Below are positions 31,521-38,341 of a stretch of 41,995 nucleotides of DNA, in pieces (the first letter of the stretch is position 1; the number at the start of each line of letters is the position of its first letter). The stretch is from assembly GCA_012837285.1 (NCBI GenBank), contig DURJ01000018.1, positions 1 to 41,995 of the forward strand, given 5' to 3'. This DNA is from Bacillota bacterium. GTDB taxonomy: Bacteria > Bacillota > DTU030 > DUMP01. The translations under genes were made by a program, and so were the position numbers. Under the pieces are notes generated by a model that ran no database searches, had not been told where the DNA came from, and saw only the letters and a program-made list of their open reading frames with translations.

Positions 31521-32165
31521 CTAGAAATGCAATAAGACTTTATAAATGACACCGAACACAATAACATCGGTTAATTGGTACAAAAGATCATAAATACCGC
31601 TGGCTAAAGGCAGCAAAATAGAGTTAATGCTGCCTAAATACAGCAAGATAATAAGTAAAATAGGCCCGTACTGTTCATATTGGGCTAAGTAGTAGGCAGT
31701 CTTTCGAGGCAGTAGTTCGGCCAGGACCTTAGAACCGTCCAAGGGCGGTATAGGTATGAGGTTGAATACGGCCAAGAAAAGACTGTACCACATGGTCATT
31801 TCCAGGATGCCAGCAATGACGCCGTCCCACGGTATCACTTGCAGTTTCAAAACAATCAATAACAGAGTTGCTAAGGCCAGATTAGCTGCCGCACCCGCCA
31901 GTGAAACAACAATAATGCCCAGACGGCGGGGTCGTATGTACATAGGGTTAATCGGCACCGGTTTGGCCCAACCAAACCGTAACAACCACAGCATTAATAA
32001 TCCTAGCGGATCTAAGTGTGCTAACGGGTTCAGTGTCATTCTACCGCTAAGCCGCGCAGTGGGATCCCCCAAAGCATCGGCTGCCTTAGCATGAGCATAT
32101 TCGTGAACGGAGATGGCCAGCAGCAAAGCCGGTATACGAAATAACATCTCGCGGCCAAATAGCAT
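31521..32165 (-). CDS. Site-2 protease family (M50) membrane metalloprotease
   Basis: Multi-pass membrane zinc protease of the small YwhC-like group. Zinc motif HEYAH (HExxH) near residue 21 and the third-ligand motif NLIPIPPLDG are intact, and about five hydrophobic segments are visible. 214 aa from ATG 32165, chosen because GGAAGGGAAG lies 6 bases upstream; the frame is open to 32207. Substrate unknown. Confidence 0.9.
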   Translation of the reverse strand: MLFGREMLFRIPALLLAISVHEYAHAKAADALGDPTARLSGRMTLNPLAHLDPLGLLMLWLLRFGWAKPVPINPMYIRPRRLGIIVVSLAGAAANLALATLLLIVLKLQVIPWDGVIAGILEMTMWYSLFLAVFNLIPIPPLDGSKVLAELLPRKTAYYLAQYEQYGPILLIILLYLGSINSILLPLASGIYDLLYQLTDVIVFGVIYKVLLHF

Positions 32166-32216
32166 GTATATCTTCCCTTCCAGCGGCCTGTTGGGGGACG
32201 TTGCCACTTAACCGCA

Positions 32217-32225
32217 ATTATAGCA
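32217..32225 (-). promoter_or_regulatory. Extended -10 promoter upstream of the M50 protease-trpS-scpAB run
   Basis: Minus strand TGCTATAAT is a perfect extended -10, about 50 bases before the protease start. The -35 position is a run of T residues and is poor. Confidence 0.5.
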
Positions 32226-32267: not shown

Positions 32268-33239
32268 TTAAGCTATTTGCGTACCAATTTGCTCGCTCCA
32301 GCGACCACAGCGGTCACCCCAGCAGGCTAAGGTTTGCCCCTCAGCTATTATTTCTACTACCTCACAACAGTTACTGCAGCCGCCACAATGTTTGCCTTTC
32401 ACATCAAAATTCCAGTGGCTGATCTCAAAACCACGGAAGCTGCTCTTGGTCCCAGGGTGAACTTTTTTTCGGGCCAATAATGCAGCTCCCAAGGCACCCA
32501 TAACGGCGTGCTGTTTCGGCACCGTCACCTTTAGCTTCAAGGCCTCTTCAAAAGCTTGTTTCATTCCTGCATTAGCTGCAACCCCACCTTGAAACAAAAC
32601 CGGCGGAAGTATTTCCTTACCTTTAGCGACGTTGTTTAGGTAGTTGCGAACCAAGGCTTGGCACAAACCGCGGGCAATATCTTCCATGGAGTGTCCCAGT
32701 TGTTGTTTGTGAATCATATCCGATTCAGCAAACACGGCACAGCGTCCGGCTATTCGAACCGGGTTCTTTGATCTGATCGCCAGTTGCCCGAATTGCTCAA
32801 TTGACAGTCCGAGTCTTTCTGCTTGACGGTCAAGAAAAGAACCGGTACCGGCAGCACAAACAGTGTTCATGGCAAAATCCACTACCATGCTGTTTCGCAG
32901 AATGATTATCTTGGAGTCTTGTCCACCGATCTCAAGAACCGTTTGCACATCAGGAAGTTCGTTAGCTGCGGCTATGCCGTGGGCTGTAATTTCGTTCTTC
33001 ACGGTATCAGCTCCTACCATAACACCGGCTAGATGACGGCCGCTGCCGGTACTGCCTACGCCGCGAATGGTAACTTCCGGGGACAGTTGGTTTTGTAGCT
33101 CAATTAACCCCCTTTGCACTGCCGCAATAGGGTTCCCTTGGGTACGCAAGTAGAGATGGGCCAAGGCTGTCTCATCTTGACTTAAGACCAAGAAATTTGT
33201 GCTAACTGAACCTAAATCAATACCCAGATATGCCTCCAA
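32268..33239 (-). CDS. Acyl-CoA dehydratase activase-like ATPase (HgdC family)
   Basis: ASKHA-fold ATPase of the 2-hydroxyglutaryl-CoA dehydratase activator family; such proteins use ATP to push one low-potential electron into a partner. The N-terminal phosphate loop GIDLGSVSTN and GIGG-type GGQDSK are visible. The two Cys that hold the dimer-interface [4Fe-4S] cluster are C128 (NTVCAAGTGSF) and C167 (AGRCAVF). The C-terminus adds a Cys-rich tail (CGGCSNCC ... CWGDRC). 323 aa; TTG start with GGGAGGA upstream. Overlaps the next gene upstream by 23 bases. No canonical dehydratase is nearby, so its target is most likely the two downstream-of-spoVAE partner proteins. Confidence 0.85.
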   Translation of the reverse strand: MEAYLGIDLGSVSTNFLVLSQDETALAHLYLRTQGNPIAAVQRGLIELQNQLSPEVTIRGVGSTGSGRHLAGVMVGADTVKNEITAHGIAAANELPDVQTVLEIGGQDSKIIILRNSMVVDFAMNTVCAAGTGSFLDRQAERLGLSIEQFGQLAIRSKNPVRIAGRCAVFAESDMIHKQQLGHSMEDIARGLCQALVRNYLNNVAKGKEILPPVLFQGGVAANAGMKQAFEEALKLKVTVPKQHAVMGALGAALLARKKVHPGTKSSFRGFEISHWNFDVKGKHCGGCSNCCEVVEIIAEGQTLACWGDRCGRWSEQIGTQIA

Positions 33240-34377
33240 AGGTTAACTCCTCCCTGGTTAGTGGTGACGTTCTCATGTTCTTCTTGCAGCTGGACCCACG
33301 GGCCCGTCTTCGTGCCCACAGCAGCTCGCAAAATGCTTCCAATCTGGTGAGTATTCCTGCTTCGGCAGAGTGTTCGTCCAGCATGAGCGTAAGAACCGGG
33401 ATATTTTCCTCCAAACTGACCCGGGGCAATATACTCTTGGCTACAATCTCCGGCATACAAGTCAAAGGTGCCACCTGAATTACCCCGTCCACACCGGCAC
33501 GAGCGTACATTATGGTGGTGCTTATGGTCTCAATCCCATGGCCACCAACAAAATGGCCCAGATACGGGGCCGCTAATCGATAATGCTCACGGTCGTCGCG
33601 AAGACGAAGGGTATGCAGGATAAGATTAGTCATCACCCAATCGCTAAGGTAGATTGACCGGATGACCTCTACACCCATTTCGCCCAGCAGTCGTTCGATT
33701 TCCAGATTAACTGCCGGTTCCAAAACAGTATATATCTCCCCAACCAAGCCCACCTTAAGGGTGTCTTTTCCTGATTCAACCTCGATTTCCTCCAATAGCA
33801 TGCTTCCATGTTCAGCTGCTTCTTGCACAGCCTTGATGTTTTCTGCCCGGTCAACTTGGGCCAAAATTGTCTTCCAAATACGGGTTGTACAGCCGCGAAG
33901 GACCTCGCGGGCCCGAACAGGGTATGCTTGTTCGGCCAGTGTGTCCAGGGCTTTTAGCTTAGCCCAAGCCAGGGCTCCGGCTCGGTACACGGTCAGGGGA
34001 GTAGCCCTGGCTGTTAAACGTCGGAGCCCCTGAATTAATAGGCGCCATTGACCTTGGGGCGGCTCCAGTACAATCATATCCAGGTTGACACCAAGATCCG
34101 CCAAGATCTCTTGCTGAACCTGGGCGTAGTAACCAAACCGGCACGGTCCAATTCCGCCCGCCATTACTACCGTATCGGCTCCCAGCTCTGCAGCCTGAAG
34201 AAAATTACCGATGTTTACCTTAAGAGGCAAGCAGGCAAACTCAGGAGCATAACGAGTACCAAGGTTAATGGTGTCCTGGCTAATAGCAGGAGGTTCCACA
34301 ACTTCAAGTCCCAGACCGGTCAACAATGACCGTACCGGTATATGAAGGTCACCCATATGAGGAAAGGTAACTTTCAA
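33217..34377 (-). CDS. Acyl-CoA dehydratase activase-related protein, large partner
   Basis: A 386-residue protein of the HgdA/B-like, COG3581-type group, function unknown. Four cysteines occur in fixed contexts: C49 (EFACLP), C79 (GGIGPCRFGYY), C163 (LRGCT) and C307 (PLTCMPE). The C-terminal EHSAEAGILTRLEAF matches the end of the neighbouring paralogue (EHTGEVGLVTRLEAF). This suggests two related halves holding an Fe-S cluster between them. TTG start with GGAGGA upstream. It overlaps both neighbours, so the trio is translated together. Confidence 0.75.
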   Translation of the reverse strand: MKVTFPHMGDLHIPVRSLLTGLGLEVVEPPAISQDTINLGTRYAPEFACLPLKVNIGNFLQAAELGADTVVMAGGIGPCRFGYYAQVQQEILADLGVNLDMIVLEPPQGQWRLLIQGLRRLTARATPLTVYRAGALAWAKLKALDTLAEQAYPVRAREVLRGCTTRIWKTILAQVDRAENIKAVQEAAEHGSMLLEEIEVESGKDTLKVGLVGEIYTVLEPAVNLEIERLLGEMGVEVIRSIYLSDWVMTNLILHTLRLRDDREHYRLAAPYLGHFVGGHGIETISTTIMYARAGVDGVIQVAPLTCMPEIVAKSILPRVSLEENIPVLTLMLDEHSAEAGILTRLEAFCELLWARRRARGSSCKKNMRTSPLTREELTFGGISGY

Positions 34378-35330
34378 GATCTATTCCTCCACTCAATCAT
34401 GTCCAAGAAGGCTTCTAATCGCGTAACCAGTCCCACTTCCCCGGTATGCTCATCCAGCGTAAGGAGTAGAAATGGTATTCGCCTAGCTTTATGTGTTCGC
34501 CGTTCCAACAGTTCCCCTACCAGGGAATCGGGCCCACAACCAAAAGAAACCACATGGACAATACCGACCACCGAGTTGTTCCTTAAGTAATGGCTGGCAG
34601 TACCCACCAGCGATCGACCCAGACTCCAAAACAGGTGTTTTGGCAAACGAGCGGCTTCACGCTCGACGATAGAGGGCGATAGCATCTCCGGTGTAACAAC
34701 TCCATAGCCGCGCTGATAAAGTTGGCTGATCAAATTCATACTGACGAATTCATCGAAGATGTTGTAAGGATGCCCCAGCAGTAATAAAGTGGGACCAGAA
34801 AGGGAGTTGGAAGAATGAGCACGTTGGCCGAGAAGATCAACCGGGGTACAGCCACGTTGAAGCTCTCGCTGATATGATTTTAGTTCATGTCTAGCTTGGT
34901 ACCAGGCAGCTTCGGCGGTTTTCTTGCTGAAACCTAATTTTTGAGCTGCCTGAATGTGTGATCGCCGCCAACCGGTGCTCTTCTGCCGGGCGTTAAGCGT
35001 CGGGGCAATCAACTGAGGTAAGTTGTAACCGCTATGTCTAATCATGTCCGGCAGGCCCATAAGCTTAGGGCAAATATAGGTGCCTTTTTGAGCACTAATT
35101 ATCCGAGGAATAAACAGACAATCAACGCTGCTGGCCAGAGACAAAGCATGTCCGTAATACACTTTTACCGGTAGACAGGCCTCGGGAACCGCTGCAGTAA
35201 CTCCCATATCCAAAATAGTCTTATCTGTTGGGGGCGAGACCACCACCTTCAGGCCTAAATGGCTCCAAAAAGTTTCCCACAAGGGATAGTAATGGTAGTA
35301 GAGCAGCGCCCGGGGGATGCCAATCTTCAC
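34374..35330 (-). CDS. DUF2229 acyl-CoA dehydratase activase-related protein, small partner
   Basis: A 318-residue protein of the DUF2229/COG3580 type (MKIGIPRALLYYHYYPLW). Cysteines C52 (EACLP), C87 (YICPK), C161 (QRGCT) and C265 (SFGCGPDS) occur in the same order as in the larger partner. GTG start at 35330 with GGTGA 7 bases upstream, 39 bases after the spoVAE stop, without a terminator between. It therefore looks like part of the spoVA operon. Function unknown; a redox complex with the adjacent ATPase is inferred. Confidence 0.75.
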   Translation of the reverse strand: MKIGIPRALLYYHYYPLWETFWSHLGLKVVVSPPTDKTILDMGVTAAVPEACLPVKVYYGHALSLASSVDCLFIPRIISAQKGTYICPKLMGLPDMIRHSGYNLPQLIAPTLNARQKSTGWRRSHIQAAQKLGFSKKTAEAAWYQARHELKSYQRELQRGCTPVDLLGQRAHSSNSLSGPTLLLLGHPYNIFDEFVSMNLISQLYQRGYGVVTPEMLSPSIVEREAARLPKHLFWSLGRSLVGTASHYLRNNSVVGIVHVVSFGCGPDSLVGELLERRTHKARRIPFLLLTLDEHTGEVGLVTRLEAFLDMIEWRNRS

Positions 35331-35369
35331 TATCGGATCACCGAACCTTTCTAAACTGCCAGCCAGCCT

Positions 35370-35720
35370 CTATCCTTTAGGGTTAAAAAGAAGGGCTATA
35401 ATCACTCCCAGCACAACAGCAGTTACAACCCCCATAGACGTGTTTTTGAACACACCGCTTAAGATACCGACAGCTCCCTTGGTCTCTACCTGTTCGAGAA
35501 TCCCCTGAACCAAAGCATGACCAAAGCCTGTAAGTGGGATGGTAGCACCTGCCCCGCCGAAGGCTGCGATTTTCTCATAAAGTCCTACACCACTGAGAAG
35601 TGCGCCTATGCAGACAAACAGTACCAACACATGGGCCGAGGTAAGGGAAGTAAGATCCATGAGCAATTGTCCCAGAGAACAAATAATCCCACCAACCACA
35701 AAAGCCTGTAAATAATCCAA
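35370..35720 (-). CDS. spoVAE: Stage V sporulation protein AE
   Basis: Membrane subunit (about four segments) of the SpoVA complex, which moves dipicolinate into the forespore and out at germination. 116 aa, the short SpoVAEb type, with VGGIICSLGQLLMDLT and PLTGFGHALVQGI. TTG start at 35720 with AGGAGGAG upstream. It shares this fold with SpoVAC. Confidence 0.94.
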   Translation of the reverse strand: MDYLQAFVVGGIICSLGQLLMDLTSLTSAHVLVLFVCIGALLSGVGLYEKIAAFGGAGATIPLTGFGHALVQGILEQVETKGAVGILSGVFKNTSMGVVTAVVLGVIIALLFNPKG

Positions 35721-35731
35721 GACAACTCCTC

Positions 35732-36742
35732 CTAGACCTTTTCTATTGATACAGCATGGGCAATGGCGGGAATGGACTCACCTTGTTGGTAAGAAGTAGG
35801 ACTAAGTAAGGCACCGGTGCTGACTAGCAGCATTCGCTTCAGCTCTCCATGCACGAGTCGCGGAAAAAAGTAGCTGGAAAATACAGCGGCTGAACAGGCG
35901 CAACCACTACCGCCGGCATGAGTGTCCTGTTCTGGATCATATATGAGTATCCCGCAGTCGGTATAGTTACTCTTAATGTCGTAACCGGCTTCAGCCAGCA
36001 TATCTTGGGCCAGACCCTTACCAAGGCTACCTAGATCGCCGGTGGCGATTACGTCGTAGTAATCAGGCTGGCGACCGGTATCTTGAAAGTGACGCTCGAT
36101 AGTGTCCACAGCCGCTGGTGCCATAGCTGATCCCATATCATTTATGTCTTTCACTCCCATGTCGATTACCTGTCCCACTGTTATTCCGGTAAGGGCGGCA
36201 CCGCTTCCACTTTCGCCGATTATAGTCGCTGCGGCACCGGTTACAGTCCAATGTGCAGTCGGTTTACGTTGAACGCCCAGTTCTGTCGGATACCGAAACT
36301 GTCGTTCCGCAGTCTGATAGTGGGACGAAGCACTAACCAGCACTTTCGACGCAAACCCTCCGTCAAGGGCAATTCCAGCCAGCCCCAAGGCTTCGCTGAA
36401 GGTGGAGCAGGCTCCAAAGAGACCAAAGAACGGAACCGGCACATGTCGAGCAGCTAAATTAGCGGCAATTATTTGGTTGAGCAAGTCGCCACCAAACATA
36501 AGATCAAGACCGCTGTAGGCCAAATTTATTTTGGCCAAGGCCAGATCCATAGCCCGTCGGACCATTTTTGACTCCCCTAGTTCCCAACTTTTTTCTCCAT
36601 AAAGGGGATCATTGATAATTTCGTCAAAATAACTACCCAGGGGGCCCATTCCTTCTTTTCTGCCCATCACCGACGCAGAACTCAAAACAGGTAACGGCCG
36701 GCTAAACAGATAGGTTTGCTTTCCTACTTTCTTTTGCCTCAA
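35732..36742 (-). CDS. spoVAD: Stage V sporulation protein AD
   Basis: Soluble thiolase-fold subunit of the SpoVA channel that binds dipicolinate. GKQTYLF, GPLGSYFD, FGACSTFSEALGLA and GGSGCACSAAVFSSYF are typical. I use TTG at 36742 (336 aa, close to 338 in Bacillus). It overlaps the spoVAC stop as TTGA, while the longer frame to 36772 has no ribosome site. AAGGTGG lies 12 bases upstream, a little far, so coupling to spoVAC may matter. Confidence 0.95.
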   Translation of the reverse strand: MRQKKVGKQTYLFSRPLPVLSSASVMGRKEGMGPLGSYFDEIINDPLYGEKSWELGESKMVRRAMDLALAKINLAYSGLDLMFGGDLLNQIIAANLAARHVPVPFFGLFGACSTFSEALGLAGIALDGGFASKVLVSASSHYQTAERQFRYPTELGVQRKPTAHWTVTGAAATIIGESGSGAALTGITVGQVIDMGVKDINDMGSAMAPAAVDTIERHFQDTGRQPDYYDVIATGDLGSLGKGLAQDMLAEAGYDIKSNYTDCGILIYDPEQDTHAGGSGCACSAAVFSSYFFPRLVHGELKRMLLVSTGALLSPTSYQQGESIPAIAHAVSIEKV

Positions 36743-37209
36743 ACCTTGATTATCCCACCTTTTAGCAGCCAATGAACAAAACCTACCAGGACTGAGGTAA
36801 GAATGCCGTAGACTAATACCGGGCCGGCTACAACGAACATTCGAGCTCCAACCCCCAGGACCAGACCTTCGCGTTTGAATTCCAACGCCGGTGAAACAAT
36901 GGAGTTGGCAAACCCGGTGATTGGCACAGCTGAGCCGGCACCGGCAAACTTGCCTAACTCATCGTACCAGCCTAAGCCTGTCAATAAAGCTCCCAGAGCA
37001 ACCATTACGGTGGCTGTAAGTCCGGCAGCTTCGTTAGCAGCAAACCCGCGAGAGGTAAATAGGTTAAGTACAATTTGGCCGATGACGCAGATGAATCCGC
37101 CTACGGCAAAAGCAGTGAGCACGTTTCGTACTACCGGGGGCTGGGGTCTCTTTTGCTGAACTCTTCGCTGGTATTCTTGCTGCTTGGGGGTCTTGCTTTG
37201 AGCGGCCAA
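36739..37209 (-). CDS. spoVAC: Stage V sporulation protein AC
   Basis: Membrane subunit of SpoVA; in Bacillus it acts as a mechanosensitive dipicolinate channel. A basic N-terminal arm (about 1-25) precedes four or five membrane segments. AVGGFICVIGQI and PITGFANSIVSPALEFKREG are typical. 156 aa. TTG start with GGGGTGG 7 bases upstream. SpoVAA and SpoVAB, which precede it in Bacillus, are not present. Confidence 0.95.
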   Translation of the reverse strand: MAAQSKTPKQQEYQRRVQQKRPQPPVVRNVLTAFAVGGFICVIGQIVLNLFTSRGFAANEAAGLTATVMVALGALLTGLGWYDELGKFAGAGSAVPITGFANSIVSPALEFKREGLVLGVGARMFVVAGPVLVYGILTSVLVGFVHWLLKGGIIKV

Positions 37210-37264: not shown

Positions 37265-37474
37265 CTAGTGTGTTCCGTCCACCGGGAACGCTATTTTGCA
37301 GTTGGCCTTGTATTCAATTACATCGCCGTCTTCTACATTACCTGTAAGGTTATAAATTTCCACCCCAGAAATATTGCGCACCGTCTTGGATGCTTGTCGC
37401 ACAGCATCTTTTACGGCGTCGTCCCAGCTTGTTTGGGACTCACCAACAACTTCTATTACCTTGACAACTGTCAT
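37265..37474 (-). CDS. Dodecin family protein
   Basis: A 69-residue protein with the dodecin fold pattern (VVKVIEVVGESQTSWDDAV, then a helix, then two strands), usually a dodecamer that stores flavin. W17 is in the usual TSW context. The Trp that stacks on flavin in archaeal dodecin (near residue 36) is glycine here (NISGVEI), so flavin binding is uncertain. ATG at 37474 with GGAGG 9 bases upstream. It sits between sigF and spoVAC, where Bacillus has spoVAA/AB, and has a forespore-like promoter. Confidence 0.88.
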   Translation of the reverse strand: MTVVKVIEVVGESQTSWDDAVKDAVRQASKTVRNISGVEIYNLTGNVEDGDVIEYKANCKIAFPVDGTH

Positions 37475-37533
37475 CTTGACGCCCCTCCTCTCTGACAATA
37501 AGCAGAAAAAGTTGAACTAGTTGATTCTGACAC

Positions 37534-37562
37534 TAGTATGGCTTATCAAGCTAAAAACATAC
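37534..37562 (-). promoter_or_regulatory. Candidate SigG-type promoter of the dodecin gene
   Basis: Minus strand GTATG, 17-base spacer, CATACTA fits the SigG pattern (GNATR / CANNMTA). It starts immediately after the sigF terminator T-run and about 60 bases before the dodecin ATG. Read-through would also serve spoVA. Prediction only. Confidence 0.45.
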
Positions 37563-37565
37563 AAA

Positions 37566-37587
37566 AAAGCGGGCATCTACCCGCTTT
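37566..37587 (-). terminator. Terminator of the spoIIA operon
   Basis: AAAGCGGG and CCCGCTTT form an 8-bp stem around six bases, followed by further T residues on the minus strand. The sigF stop codon (37577-37579) lies in the loop. Confidence 0.88.
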
Positions 37588-38341
37588 CTAGCAGTTCCTT
37601 TATTTTCAGCAGAATTTGTTTTTCCAGCCGCGACACTTGCACCTGTGACAACCCCAATTCTTTCGCCACCTCAGCTTGTGTCTTGTCGACAAAGAAGCGC
37701 TGCCGGATGATGTGCTGTTCCCGTGGGGTTAATTTCTGCAGTAGTTGCCTCAACAGAATATGCTCCAACCAGTCATTGCTGTTTCCTTCTCCTAACCGGT
37801 CTTCCAGTTTTAAGGCGCTGGTTTCGTCTCTATAGATTGGATCCGACAACGAGGCCGGAGTCTGCACTGCTTCCAGTGAACAAACCAACTCTTCCGGACT
37901 CACACCGATTTCAGCCGCAATTTCGCTCACACTCGGATCTCGTCCTAACCGTTGGGCCAGCAACTGTTTTGCTCGACGGCCCTTATGCGCAGTCTCTTTA
38001 AGAACCCGACTTATCTTAATCGGGTTGTCATCACGGAGAAAACGCCGTATTTCGCCGATAATCATGGGGACAGCATAAGTAGAGAACTGGACATTGTAAG
38101 CAGGGTCAAATTTGTCTACGGCCTTCATCAAGCCAATTGTACCAATTTGAAAGAGGTCTTCAAACTCATGGCCGCGGCCAGCAAAACGACGTGCTATGTT
38201 AACCACTAGCCTTAGGTTCTCATTAATCACCTGTTCCCTAGCTTCGCCATCACCCGCCCTTATCCGAGCCAGCAATTCAATTGTTTGCTGCGATCCTTTA
38301 CTCCGCTCAGGTAGATCTAATCGGAGAAAATGTTCAGTCAT
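37577..38341 (-). CDS. sigF: RNA polymerase sporulation sigma factor SigF
   Basis: The first forespore-specific sigma factor, held inactive by SpoIIAB until SpoIIAA is dephosphorylated. Region 2 (NLRLVVNIARRFAGRG, DLFQIGTIGLMKAVDKFD, FSTYAVPMIIGEIRRFLRDD), region 3, and region 4 with the -35 helix-turn-helix (LGLSQVQVSRLEKQIL) are complete. 254 aa. ATG at 38341 overlaps the end of spoIIAB by 8 bases. Confidence 0.97.
   Translation of the reverse strand: MTEHFLRLDLPERSKGSQQTIELLARIRAGDGEAREQVINENLRLVVNIARRFAGRGHEFEDLFQIGTIGLMKAVDKFDPAYNVQFSTYAVPMIIGEIRRFLRDDNPIKISRVLKETAHKGRRAKQLLAQRLGRDPSVSEIAAEIGVSPEELVCSLEAVQTPASLSDPIYRDETSALKLEDRLGEGNSNDWLEHILLRQLLQKLTPREQHIIRQRFFVDKTQAEVAKELGLSQVQVSRLEKQILLKIKELLESG

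Follow-up and report, generated by a model that had tools for sequence, protein, structure and literature searches.

A putative ATP-driven iron–sulfur enzyme encoded with the spoVA genes in anaerobic spore formers

We analysed a 41,995-nt stretch of DNA (the window) from a Bacillota bacterium (assembly GCA_012837285.1, contig DURJ01000018.1, here C18; the genome comprises 2.17 Mb in 204 contigs), in which the spoVA genes of the dipicolinate channel are followed by a trio of genes encoding two related iron–sulfur (Fe–S) proteins, subunits A and B, and an activator ATPase, ACT. The minus-strand order is spoIIAA-spoIIAB-sigF, a terminator-like hairpin, dodecin, spoVAC, spoVAD, spoVAE, A, B, ACT, an M50 protease gene, trpS, scpA and scpB (Table 1). 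The original prediction, made from the sequence of the window, stated that the genes of the trio overlap or nearly abut and follow spoVAE without a terminator. In agreement, A starts 39 bp past spoVAE, the A–B overlap is 4 nt and the B–ACT overlap 23 nt, and neither a terminator-like nor a promoter-like site was found in the spoVAE–A interval.

ACT scored 160.7 bits against PF01869 (cut-off 31.5), placing it in the BcrAD_BadFG ATPase fold, and 187.8 bits against TIGR00241 (cut-off 125.4). In phmmer comparisons with the PDB, ACT matched the activators MbdQ (9gai; E 1e-40), HgdC (1hux; E 1e-34) and DCCP-R (7yyl; E 3e-23). The NCBIfam equivalog models for activator subunits of benzoyl-coenzyme A (CoA) reductase scored far below their cut-offs (TIGR02259, 107 against 578; TIGR02261, 65.7 against 312.85; TIGR03192, 66.7 against 380.2). 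For conservation of cysteines, the fetched loci, a few of which overlap, supplied 99 homologues of A, 93 of B and 89 of ACT. The cluster cysteines of HgdC-type activators, C128 and C167, had been recognised in ACT in the original prediction and proved invariant (89/89), and C193 was near-invariant. ACT also carries a C-terminal tail with the pattern C285-x2-C288-x3-C292-x18-C311, conserved in 88–89 of the 89 homologues. The Pfam match stops at residue 256, short of this tail, and the activators in the PDB are only 243–276 aa long; the tail might hold an entry cluster or serve as a structural metal site.

Subunits A and B are homologous along their length (hhalign probability 99.9%, E 4e-37) and are ancient duplicates. 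Three cysteines are invariant in each: C52, C87 and C265 of A (98–99 of 99 homologues) and C49, C79 and C307 of B (93/93), and hhalign pairs C52 of A with C49 of B and C265 with C307. A fourth shared cysteine, in an RGCT motif, had been proposed. It is rare among homologues (C161 of A in 4/99, C163 of B in 1/93) and its occurrence in both subunits is chance. The matching C-terminus noted for the two proteins was borne out, as both share the pattern DEH[TS]GEAG..TRLEAF. AlphaFold2 models (predicted local distance difference test scores of 92.5 for A and 88.0 for B) gave DCCP (7yyl/6eno) and HadBC (3o3m/3o3n) as the best Foldseek matches of A, and DCCP, HadBC, BzdN and MbdN as those of B. Matches of A and B to PDB structures at E ≤ 1e-4 were exclusively DCCP, HadBC, Bzd or Mbd chains. 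Template modelling scores against superfamily structures were moderate (0.4–0.6), as expected for distant relatives. PDB profile searches agreed with the fold matches on the relatives, and paired the third cysteine with one in DCCP and HadC. By the modelled fold of the catalytic subunits, A and B thus fall in the superfamily of class I benzoyl-CoA reductases and 2-hydroxyacyl-CoA dehydratases (BCR-I/HAD).

In BzdO, the catalytic [4Fe-4S]-OH2 cluster has three cysteine ligands, and coordination in HadB is alike (PMC11971306). With three invariant cysteines per subunit, the arrangement in A and B is therefore expected to be dehydratase-like and not a double cubane, each subunit most likely holding its own [4Fe-4S] cluster as in 2-hydroxyacyl-CoA dehydratases; the earlier idea that they form two halves of one cluster site is correspondingly less likely. 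In a genome of the same genus, a single 1434-aa protein (locus L049, 5090–9394) has the order ACT-ACT-four-cysteine motif-A-B, and this natural fusion supports treating the separate A, B and ACT as one machine.

Next to spoVA, the trio is widespread. In the window's family, A lies behind spoVA in 7/8 genomes; only an A copy of a second gene set (below) was found in the eighth, whose spoVA locus is close to the edge of its contig. For 300 sampled genomes of the phylum, searches detected SpoVAD in 255 and A (counted at E ≤ 1e-40) in 213. By eye from the two lists, A was present in 204/255 genomes with SpoVAD compared with 9/45 without. Those nine are G082, G234, G255 (a fused-type match only) and six with divergent or second-set-like copies away from spore genes. 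G082 has an intact sigF-spoVAEa-spoVAF-A locus, G234 has the trio on a short contig, and DpaA is present in both; they are probably spore formers with sequence gaps. Within families such as f12, f19, f33 and f61, genomes that gave no SpoVAD match likewise include carriers of A-type genes. The original prediction held that a lack of linkage to spoVA in every related genome would speak against it, and a survey of relatives found the opposite. Among the best matches listed, 106 genomes had positions for both genes, and A lay no more than 12 kb downstream of spoVAD, on its strand, in 70 of them, from 28 families and mostly 0.4–2.8 kb away, a count inflated by the relatedness of the genomes. Fourteen loci, most of them counted as unlinked or outside the comparison, were inspected by hand. 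Six of them, from complete genomes and missed by the distance rule (L168–L172 and L175), proved linked to sigF, dodecin, spoVAF or an additional set of spoVA genes, and L178, L179 and L181 were linked as well.

Among 80 loci from named organisms, a spoVA gene precedes A in 63 of the 71 with enough upstream sequence, in a collection enriched for linked copies because the query was built from spoVA-linked copies and close relatives. The nearest spoVA gene before A was spoVAF in 35 and spoVAE in 23. Linked genera include Desulfotomaculum, Desulfofundulus, Desulfovirgula, Desulfotruncus, Desulforadius, Pelotomaculum, Sporotomaculum, Thermincola, Tepidanaerobacter, Thermosyntropha and Thermacetogenium. 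In six loci (L100, L101, L107, L111, L113 and L119), sigF-dodecin is followed directly by spoVAEa-spoVAF-A-B-ACT, and spoVAC-AD-AE was not seen in the fetched stretch. As separate observations, L090, L091 and L130 have A then ACT with no B detected; these are contigs of metagenome-assembled genomes labelled unnamed bacterium, Nitrospirota and NPL-UPA2, and suggest transfer or misbinning. In L139 (13684–17727), a DCCP-like protein, a short activator and a ferredoxin-type oxidoreductase stand behind an A-B pair that has no ACT of its own.

Promoters were sought with the Bacillus subtilis sigma-G consensus, GHATR-N17/18-CATWHTA, and enrichment was judged against dinucleotide shuffles. Over 8.3 kb of the minus strand of the window, only GTATG-N17-CATACTA matches strictly, and it lies after the sigF terminator and before dodecin. 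Identical promoter letters, with a spacing of 17 or 18, precede dodecin in most relatives of the window's class, and in named loci a site within one mismatch stands before dodecin in 43/53, compared with 3.2 in shuffles. As dodecin also lies between sigF and spoVAC in most spoVA-linked loci, it seems to be a spore gene in these anaerobes. Among loci with a gap of 50 nt or more upstream of A, 23/55 had a site with at most one mismatch (shuffles, 2.4) and 11/55 a perfect site (shuffles, 0.1). Control genes with gaps (M50, trpS, scpA, spoIIAA, B, ACT, spoVAD and spoVAE) had sites in 3 of about 114. The dacF gene, which is forespore-expressed in B. subtilis, had a forespore-type site in 22/53 loci. 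A promoter of its own was rejected for A in the window, where the best forespore-type match upstream has 3 mismatches. A separate vegetative promoter, named beforehand as an observation that would count against the predicted association, was likewise absent before A in the window, and the only promoter-like head there is of the forespore type. These sites suggest that the trio is turned on as the spore develops.

A second set, A2-B2-ACT2 (L006, G000:C154, 3841–6909), is 39, 43 and 62% identical to A, B and ACT, respectively. It adjoins ynbB, a GTPase gene and spoVK, and is kept in both families of the window's class. In a tree of 90 A proteins, the ynbB-spoVK copies form one clade (100/100) apart from the spoVA-linked copies. 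No consistent forespore-type or sigma-E promoter match was found for A2-B2-ACT2 beside spoVK.

We propose that A, B and ACT probably constitute one forespore-expressed, oxygen-sensitive, ATP-driven, low-potential Fe–S enzyme of the BCR-I/HAD superfamily. Computed support comes from the assigned family and fold, the conservation of the cluster cysteines, the co-occurrence and order of the genes, and the upstream forespore-type promoter. ACT would dimerise round one [4Fe-4S] cluster, with C128 and C167 of each chain as ligands, and would take electrons from ferredoxin or flavodoxin, perhaps via its four-cysteine tail. ATP hydrolysis by ACT would then deliver single low-potential electrons to an A-B heterodimer with one three-cysteine [4Fe-4S] cluster per subunit, of which one may work on the substrate. 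The enzyme is expected to act in the forespore during late sporulation, alongside dipicolinate uptake through SpoVA, since the promoter is of the forespore type and the reaction would need ATP, of which a dormant spore has little. By analogy with its relatives, the likeliest class of substrate would be a CoA thioester or a hydroxy acid that undergoes remodelling inside the forespore. The original description of a radical-dehydratase-type, ATP-driven, low-potential Fe–S machine with spoVA is thus well supported by profiles, folds, cysteines, linkage and promoters. The dehydratase label itself is tentative, as PF06050 was below its cut-off of 28.4 bits for both subunits (A, 19.2; B, 25.8).

Several observations weigh against a spore-specific enzyme. 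The consensus used is that of B. subtilis, the sites preceding A come mainly from Desulfotomaculum- and Thermincola-like groups, and in a second set of genomes only 3/9 sites before A were within one mismatch and 0/9 were perfect. In the sister family, ACT lies behind spoVAE/spoVAF (L064–L068) and the A-B pair is elsewhere with no ACT beside it (L058–L061), and on hand inspection A-B was unlinked to spoVA in L173, L174, L176, L177 and L180. Gene order is also weak alone, since lysA, trpB2, M50, trpS and scpAB are equally kept in the block. The trio might then be a vegetative metabolic enzyme in a conserved block, sigF-spoVA-lysA-M50-trpS-scpAB, transcribed from the spore promoter by simple read-through. 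This account, which we regard as unlikely, draws on those equally conserved housekeeping genes, on the second set beside spoVK-ynbB with no consistent forespore promoter, and on the divergent homologues in genomes without SpoVAD. However, in many lineages a forespore-type promoter stands before A itself, which is not so for M50, trpS and scpA on the lysA side; in the window, the sole promoter-like head is not vegetative. Moreover, the linked type stays with sigF, dodecin or spoVAF where spoVAC-AD-AE was not found in the fetched stretch (the six loci above and L168).

Other accounts accept the link to the spore and differ on the chemistry. Because SpoVFA (TIGR02853) was not above cut-off in 13/13 genomes of the window's class, one of them complete, while SpoVA was present, and because the trio is closely linked to the channel genes, it might replace a missing dipicolinate synthase and make dipicolinate for SpoVA. 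We give this hardly any credence: dipicolinate synthesis ends with an oxidation, the reverse of what a low-potential reductase does, and SpoVFA coexists with a spoVA-linked trio in many genomes elsewhere (e.g. families f13, f15, f17 and f27), so that the two are not mutually exclusive and replacement is disfavoured. An [Fe8S9] double-cubane enzyme that reduces small molecules is suggested by DCCP of Carboxydothermus, the top sequence and fold match of A and B, which likewise has an ATPase partner of the same family (DCCP-R). DCCP is a homodimer with six-cysteine [8Fe-9S] clusters, in contrast to the distinct proteins A and B, and in BzdN a single subunit supplies six cysteine ligands to the [8Fe-9S] cluster (PMC11971306). 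With only three invariant cysteines per subunit, a double-cubane cluster in A-B was rejected, and we consider this type of enzyme improbable here. Slightly less probable still is a reductive-activase role for A-B-ACT, in which A-B would dock a different metalloenzyme as the target and there would be no small-molecule substrate. The ATP-driven activators of the family do act on protein partners and no substrate gene is co-conserved with the trio, but A and B carry the fold and cluster cysteines of catalytic subunits and no obvious client enzyme is linked.

Compared with known systems, the predicted A-B-ACT enzyme resembles HadBC with HadI and HgdAB with HgdC (Clostridium/Acidaminococcus), which also have a heterodimer of two homologous subunits of the same fold with three cysteines each and an ASKHA ATPase with two cluster cysteines. 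In contrast to these, an N-terminal DUF2229 region is present in A and B, whose PF06050 scores are under the cut-off; A is shorter; the extra four-cysteine tail is found on ACT; and the genes lie in a sporulation operon. The class I benzoyl-CoA reductases BzdNOPQ and MbdNOPQ share the superfamily fold, the three-cysteine site of BzdO and, in MbdQ, the nearest relative of ACT by sequence, but they use two different activator subunits where there is one here, and no aromatic-degradation genes lie near the trio. Single-chain ‘acyl-CoA dehydratase activase-related’ proteins of about 1430 aa, such as that in L049, have a matching four-cysteine motif, but are fused and lie outside spore operons. The B. 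subtilis spoVA operon (spoVAA-AF-lysA) is similar in that many relatives have sigF, spoVAC-AD-AE(-AF) and lysA downstream, and differs in that three Fe–S genes and dodecin are added here. No match was found in B. subtilis in a DUF2229 control search.

Sporulation is understood mainly from the aerobe B. subtilis, and the deep conservation of the trio in many anaerobic lineages points to a step in spore formation that is missing from that model. More tentatively, and arguing from sequence, this may be a conserved sporulation enzyme of anaerobic endospore formers in which forespore-specific, ATP-driven radical or low-potential Fe–S chemistry performs a reductive or dehydrating reaction that the spore needs for its maturation or revival. 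Oxygen sensitivity, if true, would account for its absence from aerobic spore formers. The DUF2229/COG3580-3581 family of ATP-driven Fe–S proteins is thereby tied to a likely cell type and time. No description of the trio in spore formation was found in the openly licensed literature, judged mostly by titles and abstracts and with most subscription journals outside it; the main text of Galperin 2012 lists the spoVA genes and mentions no such Fe–S partner (PMC3533761).

Table 1. Features of the spoVA operon and its surroundings in the window
Feature	Position	Strand	Evidence
Terminator-like hairpin closing spoIIAA-spoIIAB-sigF	37564..37589	-	AGAAAGCGGGTAGATGCCCGCTTTTT, 11 pairs, then T-rich tail
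Forespore-type (sigma-G/sigma-F) promoter GTATG-N17-CATACTA, operon head	37534..37562	-	motif match
Dodecin gene (flavin-binding protein family), first gene of the operon	37265..37498	-	PF07311 E 1.3e-27
spoVAC	36739..37209	-	TIGR02838 above cut-off
spoVAD	35732..36772	-	TIGR02845 above cut-off
spoVAE	35370..35720	-	TIGR02839 above cut-off
Subunit A, 318 aa, DUF2229/COG3580-like Fe–S protein	34374..35330	-	PF09989 E 8e-53
Subunit B, 386 aa, A-homologous Fe–S protein	33217..34377	-	PF09989 E 6e-10
ACT, 323 aa, HgdC/BcrAD-type reductive-activator ATPase	32268..33239	-	PF01869 E 6.5e-47
ACT four-cysteine C-terminal extension (residues 285–311), candidate extra metal or Fe–S site	32307..32387	-	conserved cysteines
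TATAAT, possible vegetative -10 of the M50 protease gene (31521-32207)	32217..32222	-	sequence reading, weak

Downstream of ACT, the TATAAT hexamer weakly suggests that the M50 protease gene would begin a separate transcription unit.

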